Shown here: positions 22,446-27,469 of the stretch, piece by piece
Layout: each line of letters opens with the position of its first letter
How positions within the stretch are numbered: the first letter of the stretch is position 1
DNA from: Rhodovarius lipocyclicus
GTDB lineage: Bacteria; Pseudomonadota; Alphaproteobacteria; Acetobacterales; Acetobacteraceae
Length of the DNA: 64,000 nt
Direction of reading: 5' to 3'
NCBI RefSeq assembly: GCF_009900765.1
Contig: NZ_JAAABL010000004.1
Coordinates: 62,001 to 126,000, forward strand
The notes under the pieces: model-generated
The model's input: only the letters and a program-made list of their open reading frames with translations
Told to the model about the DNA's origin: nothing
Databases searched by the model: none
Program-made: the position numbers and the translations under genes

Positions 22446-22590
22446 GGCACGAGGCCTGGACTCGTGCCAAGGCCGCGGATGCGGCCCGCCGGCAGTCCGG
22501 CGAAGCCAAGCGAACCGGAGGTTCGCGCCCGGCGTTTGAGGGCAGGGCAAAGGCTGATAGCGGCGGTCGAGCAATCGACCGGTGCTATCA
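22446..22590. repeat. Dispersed structured intergenic repeat, copy 2
   Basis: The core at 22466-22559 matches 20374-20466 with only a few differences. A hairpin GGCACGAG / CTCGTGCC (22446-22468) flanks it on the left, and an imperfect inverted repeat (TGATAGC...GCTATCA) closes it at 22555-22590. As in copy 1, the outer arm contains the TGA stop codon of the minus-strand neighbour, here lrp (22588-22590). The flanking hairpins differ between copies while the core is conserved, which suggests compensatory or modular evolution. Confidence 0.8.
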
Positions 22591-23076
22591 GACCGGTTCC
22601 GGCCCCACGGGCACGCCCGCGCTCTGCTTGGCGGTGCGGATGGTCTGCAGGGTCTGCACCCGGCTGACCATGGGCGCGCCGGTCAGGCGGCTGGTCAGCT
22701 GGTTCTCATGCGCGGTGTCGCGCGCGACCAGGCGCAGCAGGAAATCCCCGCCGCCACGGATCATGTGGCACTCCCGCACCTCCGGCCAGCCGGTGACCTC
22801 GGATTCGAAGCCGTCCAGCACCGCCTGCTTCTGGCTGTCGAGCCCGACCAGCGCGAAGAAGGTGATCTCATAACCCAGCGGTTCCGGGGCCACATCGGCG
22901 TGGTAGCCGCGGATGATCCCCACCTCCTCCAGCCGGCGCATCCGGCGCAGGCATGGGGGCGCCGAGAGGCCGACGCGGCGGGCCAGTTCCACATTGGTGA
23001 TGCGTCCATCCTGCTGAAGTTCCGCGAGAATGTGCATGTCTACGTCGTCGAGTTCAGCTTCTGGTGCGTCCGCCAT
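22588..23076 (-). CDS. Lrp/AsnC family transcriptional regulator
   Basis: 162-aa regulator. An N-terminal winged helix (DDVDMHILAELQQDGRITNVELARRVGLS then PPCLRRMRRLEEVGIIRGYHA) and a C-terminal RAM ligand-binding domain (EITFFALVGLD through LTSRLTGAPMVSRVQTLQTI) are complete. It is likely an amino-acid-responsive regulator. It is divergent from trxB across about 190 bp, so it may act on the trxB-lysR promoter; this gene order is seen in other alphaproteobacteria. The stop codon is embedded in the repeat at 22446-22590. Confidence 0.9.
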   Translation of the reverse strand: MADAPEAELDDVDMHILAELQQDGRITNVELARRVGLSAPPCLRRMRRLEEVGIIRGYHADVAPEPLGYEITFFALVGLDSQKQAVLDGFESEVTGWPEVRECHMIRGGGDFLLRLVARDTAHENQLTSRLTGAPMVSRVQTLQTIRTAKQSAGVPVGPEPV

Positions 23077-23267
23077 TGTTCAACCATATTTCGTTGCGCC
23101 ACGGCGCATCCAGGCGCAATATCCTTGCGAACGCACTTCGGTTCAAGCCGATCGACCGATTCGGCTTCCAGAATCCTTGCAGGGCGGGCATGCAGGAAGA
23201 ATATTGATGATGGTCAACGATTCATCCTGTTTCATTGATCCCACCCTTCCTGCCGAGTGAAACCTCC

Positions 23268-24236
23268 GTGGCCACCACCCATCACACCCCGCTTCTCGTC
23301 ATCGGCGCCGGCCCTGCCGGCTACACGGCGGCGATCTACGCCGCGCGCGCGGGGCTGAAACCCATGCTGGTGGCCGGGCTGCAGCCCGGCGGGCAGCTGA
23401 CCATCACCACCGATGTCGAAAACTACCCGGGCTTCGCCGAAGCCGTGCAGGGCCCCTGGCTGATGGAGCAGATGCGCGCCCAGGCCGAGCACATGGGCAC
23501 GGCGATGCAGTACGACATCATCACCGCCGTGGATTTCAGCCAGCGCCCCTTCCGCTGCCAAAGCGACAGCGGCGACCTGTATGTGGCCGAGACCATCGTG
23601 ATCGCGACCGGCGCGCAGGCGCGCTGGCTGGGCATTCCGGGTGAGCAACAATTGTCCGGCTTCGGCGTTTCCGCCTGCGCGACCTGCGATGGCTTCTTTT
23701 TCCGGGGCCGGCGCGTGGCCGTGGTCGGCGGCGGCAACACCGCGACCGAGGAAGCGCTGTACCTGGCCAACCTGGCCGAGCACGTGACGCTGATCCACCG
23801 CCGCGACAGCCTGCGCAGCGAAAAGATCCTGCAGCAGCGCCTGCTCGCGCTGCCCAATGTCTCCGTGTTGTGGAACACCGAGGTGGCGGAAGCCCTGCCG
23901 ACGGACGCCGCGCGCCCCGCCCTGCGGGCGCTCAAGCTGCGCGATACCGTGACTGGTGCGTTTTCAGAGCTTTCTGTTGATGGATTGTTCGTCGCGATCG
24001 GGCATGATCCGGCCACGGCCGTGTTCAAGGGACAGATCGGGATGGATTCCGAGGGCTATCTGATCACCGAACCGGGCAGCACGCGCACGTCCGTGCCCGG
24101 CGTCTTCGCCGCGGGCGACGTGCAGGACAAGACGTATCGCCAGGCCGTGACCGCGGCTGGTACCGGATGTATGGCCGCGCTGGATGCCGAACGCTTCCTC
24201 GCCGCGGCTCATAGTGGGGAAAGACAGGCCGCCTGA
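23268..24236 (+). CDS. trxB: Thioredoxin-disulfide reductase
   Basis: 322-aa flavoprotein that reduces thioredoxin with NADPH. The FAD-binding VIGAGPAGYTAAIYAARAG, the redox-active CATCDGFF, the NADPH-binding VVGGGNTATEEALYLA and the C-terminal GVFAAGDVQDKTYRQAVTAAGTGC are all present. I choose the GTG at 23268 because it gives the usual N-terminus (TTHHTPLLVIGAG); a TTG at 23235 would add 11 residues. The stop overlaps the LysR start by one base (TGATG), so the two form an operon, as for trxB-lsrB in Sinorhizobium. Confidence 0.95.
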   Translation: MATTHHTPLLVIGAGPAGYTAAIYAARAGLKPMLVAGLQPGGQLTITTDVENYPGFAEAVQGPWLMEQMRAQAEHMGTAMQYDIITAVDFSQRPFRCQSDSGDLYVAETIVIATGAQARWLGIPGEQQLSGFGVSACATCDGFFFRGRRVAVVGGGNTATEEALYLANLAEHVTLIHRRDSLRSEKILQQRLLALPNVSVLWNTEVAEALPTDAARPALRALKLRDTVTGAFSELSVDGLFVAIGHDPATAVFKGQIGMDSEGYLITEPGSTRTSVPGVFAAGDVQDKTYRQAVTAAGTGCMAALDAERFLAAAHSGERQAA

Positions 24237-25132
24237 TGCCGCTCGACTGGGACAAGCTTCGCGTCTTCCATGCCGTCGCCGAAGCCGGCTCTTTCACCCA
24301 CGCGGGTGAGAGCCTGAACCTCAGCCAATCCGCCGTCTCGCGGCAGATTCAGGCGCTTGAGGAATCGCTCTCCGTGCCGCTGTTCCACCGGCACGCGCGG
24401 GGCCTGATCCTGACCGAGTCGGGGGAGACGCTGAACCGCACCGTGCGCGACGTCTTCGCCAAGCTCGCGATGACCGAGGCGCTGCTGACCGAGGGCCGCG
24501 AGAAAGCCGCCGGCCGGCTCAAGATCACCACCACGGCGGGCTTCGGCAGCGCGTGGCTGGCGCCCCGCCTGCACAAATTCCTGAACGCGCATCCGGAGGT
24601 GAACATCTCCGTCCTGCTGGATGACGCGGACCTCGACCTGGCGATGCGCGAGGCCGATGTGGCCATCCGCCTGCACGCGCCCAAGCAGCCGGACCTGATC
24701 CAGCGCCAGATCGCCAGCTTCAACTGGCAGATCTTCGGGTCGCCCGAATATCTAAAGCAGCACGGCATGCCCCAGCGCGCCGAGGATCTGGACGCGCACC
24801 GGGTGCTGATCTGGGGCGACTACCGCCCGCCGATCGACGGCATCAACTGGCTGGCGGAGGTGGGGCGCCGCCCCGGCGGCCCGCGCCGCCCGGCGGTGGA
24901 GATCAACAGCCTGACCGGCATCATGCGCGCCGTGCAGTCCGGCCTGGGCCTGGCCGCCCTGCCCGATTATGTGGGGAGCGATCTGCACGGGCTGGTGCAG
25001 GTGCTGCCCGACTTGAAGACGCCAAAGGTCAACGCCTATTTCGTATATCCCGAGGAAATGCGGAATTCGAAGCGCGTGGCGGTGTTCCGGGACTTCCTCA
25101 TGTCCGAACTGGCCCAATTGCACAGCAGCTGA
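24236..25132 (+). CDS. LysR-type regulator, LsrB/VtlR type
   Basis: 298-aa LysR regulator. The N-terminal helix-turn-helix (MPLDWDKLRVFHAVAEAGSF, NLSQSAVSRQIQALEESL, LFHRHARGLILTESG) closely follows the LsrB/VtlR pattern as I know it from Sinorhizobium, Brucella and Agrobacterium. Downstream is the co-inducer domain with RITTTAGFG-like and EINSLTGIMRAVQSGLGLAALPDYV segments. In those species this protein activates AbcR sRNAs and redox genes and is encoded behind trxB, exactly as here, with an AbcR-like sRNA next to it. Unlike LsrB it contains no cysteine, so thiol-based sensing is not possible in this protein. Confidence 0.85.
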   Translation: MPLDWDKLRVFHAVAEAGSFTHAGESLNLSQSAVSRQIQALEESLSVPLFHRHARGLILTESGETLNRTVRDVFAKLAMTEALLTEGREKAAGRLKITTTAGFGSAWLAPRLHKFLNAHPEVNISVLLDDADLDLAMREADVAIRLHAPKQPDLIQRQIASFNWQIFGSPEYLKQHGMPQRAEDLDAHRVLIWGDYRPPIDGINWLAEVGRRPGGPRRPAVEINSLTGIMRAVQSGLGLAALPDYVGSDLHGLVQVLPDLKTPKVNAYFVYPEEMRNSKRVAVFRDFLMSELAQLHSS

Positions 25133-25161
25133 CGCCAAGCCGCGAGCAAATGGTGAAAATT

Positions 25162-25201
25162 CAACGGCCTGGAGCATGACGCTCCAGGCCGTTGCCGTTT
25201 T
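25162..25201 (+). terminator. Rho-independent terminator of trxB-lysR
   Basis: Perfect 14-bp inverted repeat (arms 25162-25175 and 25181-25194, loop ATGAC) followed by CCGTTTT, 30 bp after the LysR stop. Confidence 0.85.
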
Positions 25202-25275
25202 CGCGCTGCAATGCGCGCACTGCATGGCAGGCGCCCGGCCTTGTCACAACCGCATGCAAACGATTGGCATTACAC

Positions 25276-25393
25276 AGTGGTCATCGGCCCTTACGGGTCG
25301 ATAGGGTCTTCGGATCCTTCGTCTCCCAGACGTGAAGCCTCCCTGTATGACTTCGCCCGCCGCCCTTCTGGGTCAGGCGGGCTTCTTTTTTTG
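25276..25393 (+). ncRNA. AbcR-like (alpha-r15 family) trans-acting small RNA
   Basis: A gene-free stretch folds into ordered hairpins: GGCCC-TTAC-GGGTC (25286-25299), GGGTC-TTCG-GATCC (25304-25317), CGTCT-CCC-AGACG (25320-25332), then a terminator (25355-25393). CTCCCA (25323-25328) lies across the third loop and CCTCCC (25338-25343) is single-stranded; both are anti-Shine-Dalgarno motifs as in the AbcR/alpha-r15 sRNAs that silence ABC-transporter mRNAs through Hfq. The position next to an LsrB/VtlR-type gene matches rhizobial and Brucella loci. The 5' end is estimated; TTGTCA at 25241 may belong to the promoter region. Confidence 0.7.
25355..25393 (+). terminator. Intrinsic terminator of the AbcR-like sRNA
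   Basis: Stem GCCCGCC (25355-25361) with GGCGGGC (25376-25382) followed by TTCTTTTTTT. It ends 31 bp before the next start codon. Confidence 0.88.
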
Positions 25394-25423
25394 GCCCCTC
25401 CCCAGCCGGGCGCAGCGCCCCAT

Positions 25424-26413
25424 ATGGCAGGGATGGTTCCCCTTTCCATCCTCGACCTGTCCCCCGTGCCCGAAGGCAGCGATGCCGGGCAGGCCCTGCG
25501 CAATTCGCGCGACCTCGCCCGCCATGCGGAGGCGCTGGGCTACAGCCGCTTCTGGATGGCCGAGCACCACAACATGCCGGGCATCGCCAGCGCCGCCACC
25601 GCGGTGGCCCTGGCCCATGTCGCGGCCGGCACCAGCACGATCAAGCTCGGCGCGGGGGGCATCATGCTGCCCAACCACGCGCCGCTGCTGATCGCGGAGC
25701 AGTTCGGCACACTGGCCGCCCTGCACCCCGGGCGCATCGAGCTGGGCCTGGGCCGCGCCCCCGGCACCGACCAGCGCACCGCCCACGCCATGCGCCGCAA
25801 CCTGGCCAGCGACGCCGACGCCTTCCCGCAGGATGTGGTGGAGCTGCTGTCCTATTTCCGCCCCGCCGAGCCGGACCAGGCGGTGCAGGCCGTGCCCGGC
25901 GCGGGGCTGGAGGTGCCGGTGTGGATCCTGGGCTCCAGCACCTTCGGCGCGCAGCTGGCGGCGGCACTGGGCCTGCCCTATGCCTTCGCCAGCCATTTCG
26001 CGCCGGCGCAGCTGCACCAGGCGGTGCAGGTGTACCGCACGCGCTTCCGTCCCTCGGAACGGCTGGCCGAACCGCGGGTGATGCTGGGCGTGAACGTCTT
26101 CGCCGCCGATTCGGATGAGGAAGCGCGGCTGCTGTTCACCTCCCTGCAGCAGGCCTTCGTGCGGCTGCGCACCGGCCGCCCCGGCAAGCTGCCCCCACCG
26201 AAGCCCGGCTATGGCGAGAGCCTGGACCCCTACGCGCGCTCCATGCTGGAGAACGCGCTGGCCTGCTCCGTGGTGGGCGGGCCGGACACGGTGCGCAAAG
26301 GGCTGGAGGAACTGGCCGCGCGCACCGGCGCGGACGAATTCATGGTGACGGCACAGATCTGGGACCATCAGGCGCGGCTGCGGTCGTTCGAGATCCTGGC
26401 CGGGTTGTGGTGA
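25424..26413 (+). CDS. LLM-class flavin-dependent oxidoreductase (MsnO8-like)
   Basis: 329-aa luciferase-like monooxygenase that would use reduced FMN and O2. [62 protein letters not shown] and [21 protein letters not shown] are the standard segments of this subgroup. Neither ATG (25424 or 25433) has a strong ribosome site; I take the first. The gene follows the sRNA terminator by about 30 bp and must have its own promoter or be leaderless. Substrate unknown. Confidence 0.85.
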
Positions 26414-26500: not shown

Positions 26501-27469
26501 TCAAGGCACCCGCAGCCCCATCCTCTCGATCATCCCCTTCGCGTCCCGTTCTTCCTCCCTCAGCCTGACGGCGAAGGCTTCCGCCCCCAGCGGCGCCACC
26601 ACCTGGCCGATGCGTTCCATCGCGTCGCGGTAGGCTTGGCTGCCCGCGGCTTCCAGGCAGGCGGTCTCCAGCCGGCGGGCCACGTCGCGCGGCAGGCCGC
26701 GCGGGGCCCACAGCCCGCCGAAGCCGCGTGAGGTCACATTCAGGCCCAGCTCGGCGAAGGTCGGGCCGCCGGGGATGCTGGCCTGGCGCTGGTCGGCGGC
26801 CACGCCCAGCACGCGCAGCCCGCTGTCGCGCACGGTCGCCCAGGTGGTGATCACGGCGTCCAGCGCGCCAGACTGCACATCCAGCATCATCTGCCCCTGG
26901 TTGCGGTAGGGCACATGGGACATGCGCACGCCGCCCAGCTGCTCCAGCTGGCGGCCGATCAGGTTGCCGACGGTGCCCACGCCGGCATCGCCCCAGGTCA
27001 CCGTCTCTGGCCGCGCGCGGGCGGTGGCGAGCATGGAGGCGGTGTCGCGGTAGGGGGATTGGGCGCCGACGGCCAGGACGAAGATGTTCTCGAAATTCTG
27101 GCAGACGGCCTCGAACCCCTCGAAGCGATAGGGCAGGCCCTGCACCAGATGCGGCAGGGTGGTGATCATGCCGGAGGGCGCGAAGGCCACGGTGCTGCCA
27201 TCGGGGCGGGCCTGGGCCACGGCGGCGGCGCCGACGCCGCCCCCCGCACCCTCTCGGTTCAGCACCAGTACATTGGCACCGGTGCCGAGCGCCACGCGCA
27301 GCGGGTCCGCGAAGCCGCGGGCCATGATGTCCATCACGCTGCCCGGGGAGAAGGGCACGATGAGGGTGACGGTGATGGGCTGGGCCAAGGCGGGCGAGAC
27401 CAGGGCGGCGCCCAGCGCGCCCAGCAGAATGCGGCGGTTGATCCCCAGCAGCATGCGGTGGTTGATCAT
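26501..27469 (-). CDS. Bug-family (TctC-like) periplasmic solute-binding protein
   Basis: 322 aa with an N-terminal signal peptide (NRRILLGALGAALVSPALAQ). It belongs to the tripartite tricarboxylate transporter receptor family: LIVPFSPGSVMDIMARGFADPL, VLVLNREGAGGGVGAAAVAQARPDGSTV and VTWGDAGVGTVGNL are the usual ligand-loop segments. It binds a carboxylate, plausibly the aromatic acid handled by the upstream enzymes. No TctA/TctB membrane genes are here, which is common for Bug proteins. It is last in a four-gene minus-strand operon, 60 bp behind the dioxygenase gene. Confidence 0.88.
   Translation of the reverse strand: MINHRMLLGINRRILLGALGAALVSPALAQPITVTLIVPFSPGSVMDIMARGFADPLRVALGTGANVLVLNREGAGGGVGAAAVAQARPDGSTVAFAPSGMITTLPHLVQGLPYRFEGFEAVCQNFENIFVLAVGAQSPYRDTASMLATARARPETVTWGDAGVGTVGNLIGRQLEQLGGVRMSHVPYRNQGQMMLDVQSGALDAVITTWATVRDSGLRVLGVAADQRQASIPGGPTFAELGLNVTSRGFGGLWAPRGLPRDVARRLETACLEAAGSQAYRDAMERIGQVVAPLGAEAFAVRLREEERDAKGMIERMGLRVP

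Follow-up and report, generated by a model that had tools for sequence, protein, structure and literature searches.

A conserved small RNA gene downstream of trxB and lysR in Rhodovarius lipocyclicus and its probable place in an LsrB/VtlR-type circuit of Alphaproteobacteria

Introduction

A 64,000-nucleotide stretch of the Rhodovarius lipocyclicus genome (contig NZ_JAAABL010000004.1, positions 62,001 to 126,000; hereafter the window) carries at 22588-25392 a divergent Lrp/AsnC-family regulator gene, trxB, lysR, a terminator-like hairpin, and a stretch resembling a small RNA (sRNA) gene. AbcR sRNAs and the LysR-type protein that regulates them have been investigated in rhizobia and Brucella in connection with virulence and symbiosis. 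The original prediction for this DNA had read the window locus as an instance of that module, with an AbcR (alpha-r15) RNA, and had extended the circuit deep into the class. A trxB-LysR-sRNA unit is indeed found in Acetobacteraceae and across the class, but its RNA is not AbcR/alpha-r15. Judging from comparative sequence evidence, we consider it probable that a class-wide LsrB/VtlR-type LysR-to-sRNA circuit exists whose RNA forms a distinct family; its activation, start site, dependence on Hfq, and targets are proposed by analogy. The regulatory circuit is thus a known one; what is new is its RNA, which differs from the known output and is far more widespread.

The comparisons draw on several sets of loci, cited by L numbers where they need to be told apart. 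The named set comprises 80 loci, the nearest among 510 LysR relatives that were found, and almost all of them belong to Acetobacteraceae as judged by title or neighboring genes; the class set comprises 80 loci from 77 other families (two loci each from three families), drawn from the 170 of 289 class genomes in which the LysR protein is present (E up to 1e-45). A divergent set holds 20 Acetobacteraceae loci whose LysR is 48-63% identical, and a further 11 named loci come from a plasmid collection. The source genome itself amounts to 4.59 Mb in 111 contigs.

The sRNA gene and its predicted fold

The sRNA gene is predicted to span 25283-25390 on the plus strand, about 108 nucleotides, on the basis of a match to our covariance model R1, the promoter spacing of Sinorhizobium meliloti abcR1, and the fold of this interval. 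It would begin with hairpin SL1 (25283-25302), followed by hairpin SL2 (25303-25318, AGGGTC-TTCG-GATCCT) and by the 5-bp hairpin SL3 (25320-25332, CGUCU-CCC-AGACG). SL3 bears the first anti-Shine-Dalgarno (anti-SD) motif, CUCCCA (25323-25328), of which CCC alone is unpaired in the fold. The second motif, CCUCCC (25338-25343), lies in a linker (25333-25354) that is nearly invariant up to CUGU. An intrinsic terminator, consisting of a hairpin and a T tract (25355-25392), is indicated by the sequence, the alignment consensus, and the fold, although a simple consensus scan listed neither terminator nor promoter.

The interval 25274-25393 folds at -51.4 kcal/mol, compared with -37.3 +/- 3.5 kcal/mol in shuffled sequences (z -4.0; 0 of 200 as stable). 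When folding starts at 25283, four separate main hairpins form, the third with CUCCCA and the fourth being the terminator; an alternative pairing between an SL2 arm and CCUCCC, which appears in folds starting at 25274 or 25298, is absent. The R1 alignment consensus includes SL3 and the terminator, and two-sided changes affect five of its ten predicted pairs, all in the terminator; covariation is uninformative for SL3, because this hairpin hardly varies. Since MAFFT misaligns SL2, that hairpin was scanned separately. Directly next to the conserved core described below, 46 of 68 named loci and 27 of 38 class loci have a stem of at least five pairs. The scan gave 52 distinct arm pairs (e.g., GGGTC/GACCC, GGATC/GATCC, GGGCC/GGTCC, and TCCGGC/GCCGGA) and mean stems of 5.2 (named) and 5.7 (class) versus 3.8 and 3.6 in shuffles. 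This simple test did not find SL2 in 33 core-bearing loci; on visual inspection, many of the 22 named loci among them appear to have a hairpin that is longer and interrupted. As judged from the arm pairs, the SL2 hairpin covaries. The hairpin, linker, and terminator of the original prediction thus agree with the coordinates, the fold relative to shuffles, and the conservation in the class.

In many class loci (L118-L197, e.g., L130, L131, and L135), a GATGTTGCGTTGCAGCATC-like hairpin lies between the LysR box and SL2; it was not seen by eye in Acetobacteraceae among the loci inspected alongside.

Conservation and distribution of the core RNA

The 25-base core, with at most two mismatches, occurs in 114 of 385 alphaproteobacterial genomes, usually as one copy, and the reversed core used as a control pattern gave one match in all of them. 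Within the window the core is found once, and none of 100 shuffles contained it at up to three mismatches. Across 107 loci, which were themselves chosen by the core with up to four changes allowed, each of core positions 1-27 differs in no more than six loci, and the changes lack codon periodicity. A strict pattern (CCTCCC, then a T run) detects the RNA in 57 of the 80 named loci and a tolerant core pattern with a T run in 65; L041, L109, and L112 have the core and fail the T-run rule, but match R1 nonetheless.

R1 was built from 90 sequences (the window, 53 named loci, and 36 class loci) and matches the window at 25298-25390 with 88.9 bits, the window being part of its training set. Matches beside LysR at E < 1e-4 are found in 50 of the 80 class loci, 14 outside the training set and 36 within it, all downstream of LysR and on its strand; L187 and L179 give weak matches (E 0.05 and 0.09). 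There is no R1 match at any of the 20 divergent Acetobacteraceae loci, nor at the seven paralogous LysR loci of the window's own genome, in which the strong copy is single and the next best match reaches 18.8 bits. A search of 398 genomes of the phylum, run with strict filters and ten candidates scored per genome, matched 65 genomes at E up to 1e-4; matches above 30 bits were confined to the class, and five genomes outside it gave weak ones (23-28 bits). The RNA is inverted and further downstream in Caldovatus (L116, 5183-5272 minus, 84 bits) and in Tistrella (L261, 12726-12812 plus) it is separated from the upstream LysR gene by 4.8 kb; it can therefore move as a separate unit. On these comparative grounds, the sRNA is a real, old, and conserved gene of its own.

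Two side observations concern copy number. The 18.8-bit match of the window genome (contig C5, 105716-105800 minus; L268, about 517-601) consists of GGCGTTTCCTCCCTAAACTTGGCCGCC followed by a terminator and looks suhB/mmgR-like by eye. In addition, two class genomes of 1.6-1.8 Mb (G353 and G363) hold four core copies each, together with six and seven LysR matches, which we read as regulator and RNA having multiplied in parallel in small genomes.

The LysR regulator and neighboring genes

The lysR gene (24236-25132, plus) begins with an ATG that overlaps the stop codon of trxB (23268-24236, plus; thioredoxin-disulfide reductase, TIGR01292 at 391.4 bits, cut-off 343.45) by one base within TGATG. 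This overlap, which the original prediction had called a fusion, likely reflects translational coupling of two separate proteins; no fused protein is encoded. The divergent Lrp/AsnC-family gene occupies 22588-23076 on the minus strand (NF008370, 115.7 bits, under the cut-off of 233). Downstream of lysR, a hairpin with 14-bp arms followed by CCGTTTT (25162-25202, plus), read from the sequence and absent from the output of the simple terminator scan, is probably the trxB-lysR terminator. In the whole 4.6-Mb genome, 144 matches to the TctC domain (tripartite tricarboxylate transporter binding proteins) were counted, one of which is the window open reading frame (ORF) 26501-27469.

The same Lrp-trxB-LysR order is present in S. 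meliloti (L256) and Rhizobium leguminosarum (L257), as had been proposed for rhizobia, with the divergent Lrp gene as an addition to that proposal. All 72 named Acetobacteraceae loci for which 2.4 kb or more of upstream sequence is available share it. Same-strand trxB precedes LysR in 64 of 80 class loci (1.3 kb upstream covered) and in six of the 11 plasmid-collection loci, five of which have the divergent Lrp gene. The trxB-vtlR order has already been published as well conserved across Alphaproteobacteria (PMC7486931).

The window LysR is 95% identical to that of Rhodovarius crocodyli, its nearest named relative, in line with the Acetobacteraceae-like genome that had been proposed, and 46.6% identical to its S. 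meliloti orthologue. In a tree of 112 LysR proteins, it groups with its relatives from Acetobacteraceae. All 108 proteins encoded at the loci, among them the ones from S. meliloti, R. leguminosarum, and Shinella, form one group with a support of 85; the outgroup consists of four paralogues of the window genome on very long branches. Because this is a quick tree with 45 of its 107 inner branches open and with long-branched paralogues, gene neighborhood weighs as much as the tree. Tree and neighborhood together support the assignment of the protein as an LsrB/VtlR orthologue, as originally predicted from sequence.

The orthology may not extend to the sensing mechanism. The window LysR lacks any cysteine and has valine at the sites of both C144 and C273 (Agrobacterium numbering). 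At the C273 site, valine occurs in all 80 named Acetobacteraceae proteins and cysteine in one of 80 class proteins; at the C144 site, seven of 80 class proteins have cysteine. In Agrobacterium, replacement of LsrB C273 by serine is reported to raise peroxide sensitivity (PMC11975290). Thiol sensing of the LsrB type is therefore not to be assumed here, and the distribution suggests that it is a derived trait of LsrB.

The LysR box and the predicted promoter

A candidate LysR box, ATGCGCGCACTGCAT (ATGC-N7-GCAT), lies at 25211-25225 on the plus strand and was recognized by its pattern and conserved position. Within 300 nucleotides downstream of the LysR stop, 56 of 79 named loci (L051 being too short) and 39 of 80 class loci contain the exact pattern; shuffles give 0.2 (named) and 0.35 (class), and nine alternative spacers yield 0-4 matches each. 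Of the core-bearing loci, 55 of the 68 named ones and 28 of the 38 class ones have an exact box upstream. The divergent Acetobacteraceae loci have none within 300 nucleotides and one in 20 within 450, so that the R1 match and the 300-nucleotide box are both missing from all 20. Three of the 11 plasmid-collection loci have an exact box (S. meliloti, another Sinorhizobium whose promoter sequence is identical, and R. leguminosarum), and seven have a box with at most one mismatch.

At S. meliloti abcR1, the LsrB/VtlR box GCAT-N3-TG-N3-T is reported at -61 to -49; LsrB binds and activates this promoter, and removal of the site lowers activity more than 22-fold (PMC8844928). The published half site overlaps the second half of the ATGC-N7-GCAT palindrome and in the window would span 25222-25234. 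The full form is present in 13 of 41 class boxes and in all three rhizobial boxes. GCAT lies exactly 61 nucleotides before the start of the ar15 model in the three rhizobial loci L256, L257, and L258 (the last with a one-mismatch box). By the same spacing, the window sRNA would start near 25283, the first base of SL1, a position more likely than 25276, which had been given together with an end at 25393. An independent sign for this rule is that, among the 55 named loci having both box and core, 45 place TANNNT at -12 or -13; the corresponding window sequence is a weak candidate -10 element, TACACA (25271-25276, plus). The window box matches the rhizobial abcR1 box in its site relative to the LysR gene and the -10 element. 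For L260 and L265, two Rhodobacterales loci, the start predicted from a one-mismatch box falls four nucleotides before the SorX model start.

Alternative interpretations

The window RNA could be a true AbcR/alpha-r15 orthologue that has diverged past the reach of covariance models, an explanation that we regard as possible but doubtful. Locus, type of LysR, and type of box are shared, and so is CUCCCA in a hairpin loop, which has been reported for Brucella, Agrobacterium, and S. meliloti AbcR1 (PMC5461406). The covariance evidence points the other way. The ar15 model (RF02345, gathering score 40 bits) fails to match 24900-25900 at a threshold as loose as E 10, and it likewise has no match anywhere in the window genome in a search of 12 genomes or records in which both rhizobial records exceeded the cut-off with two copies each. 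The remaining hits of that search, at most 24.1 bits and away from LysR loci, are taken as noise because 8 of 14 unrelated control genomes also gave such hits. As a positive control, L256, L257, and L258 each yielded two copies at 97-127 bits; a class-wide ar15 search (0 of 289) was set aside, since no positive control scored in it. Conversely, R1 does not match the rhizobial abcR loci L256, L257, and L258 at E up to 10. As there is no match in either direction, the window RNA is not AbcR by sequence and structure, and the alpha-r15 membership proposed in the original prediction is rejected on covariance scores, a poor score being one of the outcomes that the prediction itself had named as refuting it. 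A link between the two families is suggested by L157, in which three tandem sRNA-like units follow trxB-LysR (about 2300-2930), with exact LysR boxes 31 and 313 nucleotides after the LysR stop preceding the first two; one of these RNAs joins an AbcR-like 5' hairpin (loop TTTCCTCCCAGAT) to an R1-type 3' half (41.8 bits), and in L156 a similar hairpin (loop TTTCCTCCCCGTTTC) is combined with a 3' part of R1 type. Of 40 class RNAs, seven have an upstream hairpin whose loop contains an anti-SD motif, compared with 1.2 expected from shuffles; none of 68 named RNAs has one (2.0 expected). However, the loci whose LysR is nearest to Rhizobiaceae in the tree (L180, L196, L259, and L263) have no R1 match downstream of LysR, the sole hit being one of 12.7 bits upstream of LysR in L263, and the intermediates are therefore not next to AbcR. 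Separately, six genomes of family f70, which has the LysR nearest to Rhizobiaceae (G307, G622, G644, G667, G768, and G844), show R1 matches of 23-31 bits, with match and LysR on different contigs in G307; these may bear on the origin of AbcR.

The other explanations concern what kind of element this is and what controls it. It is unlikely that the sRNA is genuine while standing outside the control of the neighboring LysR, the box serving another regulator or lysR itself. Such independence would fit a report that S. meliloti abcR was unaffected by LsrB under the conditions used there (PMC7486931), and in 12 class loci the box occurs where the core pattern is missing, although several of these loci hold R1-detected RNAs. 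A later study nevertheless reports the loss of activity on removal of the LsrB site and the binding described above (PMC8844928); the position of the box suits activation, and R1 match and box are missing together from the 20 divergent loci. An even less likely reading is that of a cis element, either the 3' untranslated region (3'-UTR) of lysR or the leader of the downstream monooxygenase gene. The stretch does lie between these two genes on the same strand, and Rhodobacter SorX is reported to be released from a 3'-UTR (PMC9438474). Yet in the window a terminator-like hairpin ends lysR, the box precedes the RNA, and the RNA has its own terminator; it is also inverted or displaced in L116 and L261. 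The leader variant is rejected, as the downstream gene is conserved in that position in 0 of 71 testable named loci. Least credible of all is a small coding gene, for which an open frame starting at 25332 (GTG-AAG-CCU-CCC-UGU) could be cited; it is rejected in view of the near-invariant core without codon periodicity and the linker, whose length after CUGU varies among loci.

The proposed circuit and its significance

With a LysR-regulated RNA of a distinct family as the preferred reading, the circuit would operate as follows. LysR, encoded together with trxB, would bind the box centered about 65 bp upstream of the sRNA start and activate the adjacent sRNA. The resulting RNA of about 108 nucleotides would end at its own terminator and expose two anti-SD stretches, CUCCCA in SL3 and CCUCCC in the linker, which, probably with the help of Hfq (hfq is encoded in the window genome), would base-pair with target mRNAs at their ribosome binding sites, silencing these transcripts. 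Transport genes are the likely targets, as for AbcR and SorX. Comparison among genomes shows the conserved gene, its structure, terminator, and box, and the LysR orthology; we infer transcription of the sRNA, its start site, activation by LysR, Hfq dependence, and targets. LsrB/VtlR is reported to activate abcR1 (PMC8844928, PMC7486931), the AbcR motifs to pair with transport-gene mRNAs (PMC8844928, PMC5461406), and SorX to repress potA (PMC9438474).

Several observations weigh against this proposal. R1 finds no match in 11 of the 80 named loci (one of them, L051, ends 71 bases after LysR), and none at E < 1e-4 in 30 of the 80 class loci. The window box misses two of the last three fixed bases of GCAT-N3-TG-N3-T, the full published box occurs in none of the 56 named Acetobacteraceae boxes, and four named and two class core-bearing loci lack even a one-mismatch box. 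ATGC-N7-GCAT by itself is not rare, with four occurrences in the window against 2.7 expected; its conserved feature is position. The start at 25283 is placed by analogy with abcR1, TACACA is a poor -10 element, the -10 pattern is not clear in class loci, and the consensus scan gave no sigma-70 match. Finally, a target scan of 610 crude ORF calls, covering 0.8 of 4.6 Mb, did not show transport genes to be enriched: Mann-Whitney p values ranged from 0.29 to 0.83 over eight tests of genes linked to transport, and the top 45 included 0 TctC and 7 ABC-neighbor genes, against 23 and 110 of the 610. This negative result is weak, because many ORF and start calls look wrong, and it speaks neither for nor against such targets.

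We found no description of the core RNA, the class-wide box, or the SorX link in searches of the text of published open-access papers. The same regulator and box are now tied to a different and far more widespread RNA with a nearly invariant 27-nucleotide core, and a LysR-to-sRNA switch is predicted across dozens of families. To our knowledge, no sRNA of this kind has been characterized in those families, and the core RNA is a candidate addition to Rfam.

Comparison with known systems

The window LysR resembles LsrB/VtlR in its LysR clade, its trxB partner, and its box, but lacks the redox-sensing cysteines described for the rhizobial proteins (PMC11975290). Among known RNAs, a tRNA is the sole Rfam match of the window at gathering scores, and the one sRNA detected in this way in the 80 class loci is SorX, in L152 and L186. 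At low thresholds, the best matches of 24900-25900 by E-value are suhB/mmgR (RF00519, 22.8 bits against a gathering score of 41), which ranks first, and SorX (RF02784, 19.3 bits against 46.6), and there is no ar15. The suhB/mmgR RNAs, which belong to clan CL00108 together with ar15, share a CUCCCU-GACUU linker before the terminator, whereas the first hairpin of their model has no CUCCC loop.

AbcR1 and AbcR2 have in common with the window RNA the Lrp-trxB-LysR-sRNA order, with the RNA after trxB-LysR and a LysR box upstream, the CUCCCA hairpin loop, an anti-SD motif in the linker, and a terminator. They differ in the second motif, which is GUUCCC or UUCCCCUC between hairpins rather than the CCUCCC of the window linker (GCCUCCC), and in an extra hairpin before the terminator that the window RNA does not have (PMC5461406, PMC8844928). 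The three rhizobial loci also hold two tandem copies each, compared with one in the window. On the best reading, AbcR is the rhizobial counterpart of the core RNA, either diverged or replaced.

This link is weaker than that to SorX. SorX passes its gathering score directly after the LysR orthologue in L152 (47.0 bits), L186 (52.3), Paracoccus denitrificans (L260, 52.6), and Pseudorhodobacter turbinis (L265, 52.4), the latter two being named Rhodobacterales; R1, trained without these loci, scores them at 41.6, 28.2, 19.4, and 27.3 bits, respectively. Because L152 matches both models well and so joins them, SorX is read as a branch of the core family, which on the best reading is covered in Rfam only through SorX. 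The likeness to the window RNA lies in the CCUCCCUGUU-GAC linker and the terminator, whereas the R1 alignments of L186, L260, L264, and L265 show the CUCCCA hairpin SL3 as absent or unpaired, and R. sphaeroides SorX is reported to derive from the 3' end of RSP_0847 (PMC9438474). A tentative history, somewhat short of probable, would make the core RNA the ancestral output of trxB-LysR in most Alphaproteobacteria, with SorX and AbcR as lineage-specific descendants, L156 and L157 as remnants of the transition, the redox-cysteine LsrB and AbcR as late rhizobial changes, and a non-thiol signal sensed by the old circuit. SorX, for its part, gains a genomic home through this comparison.

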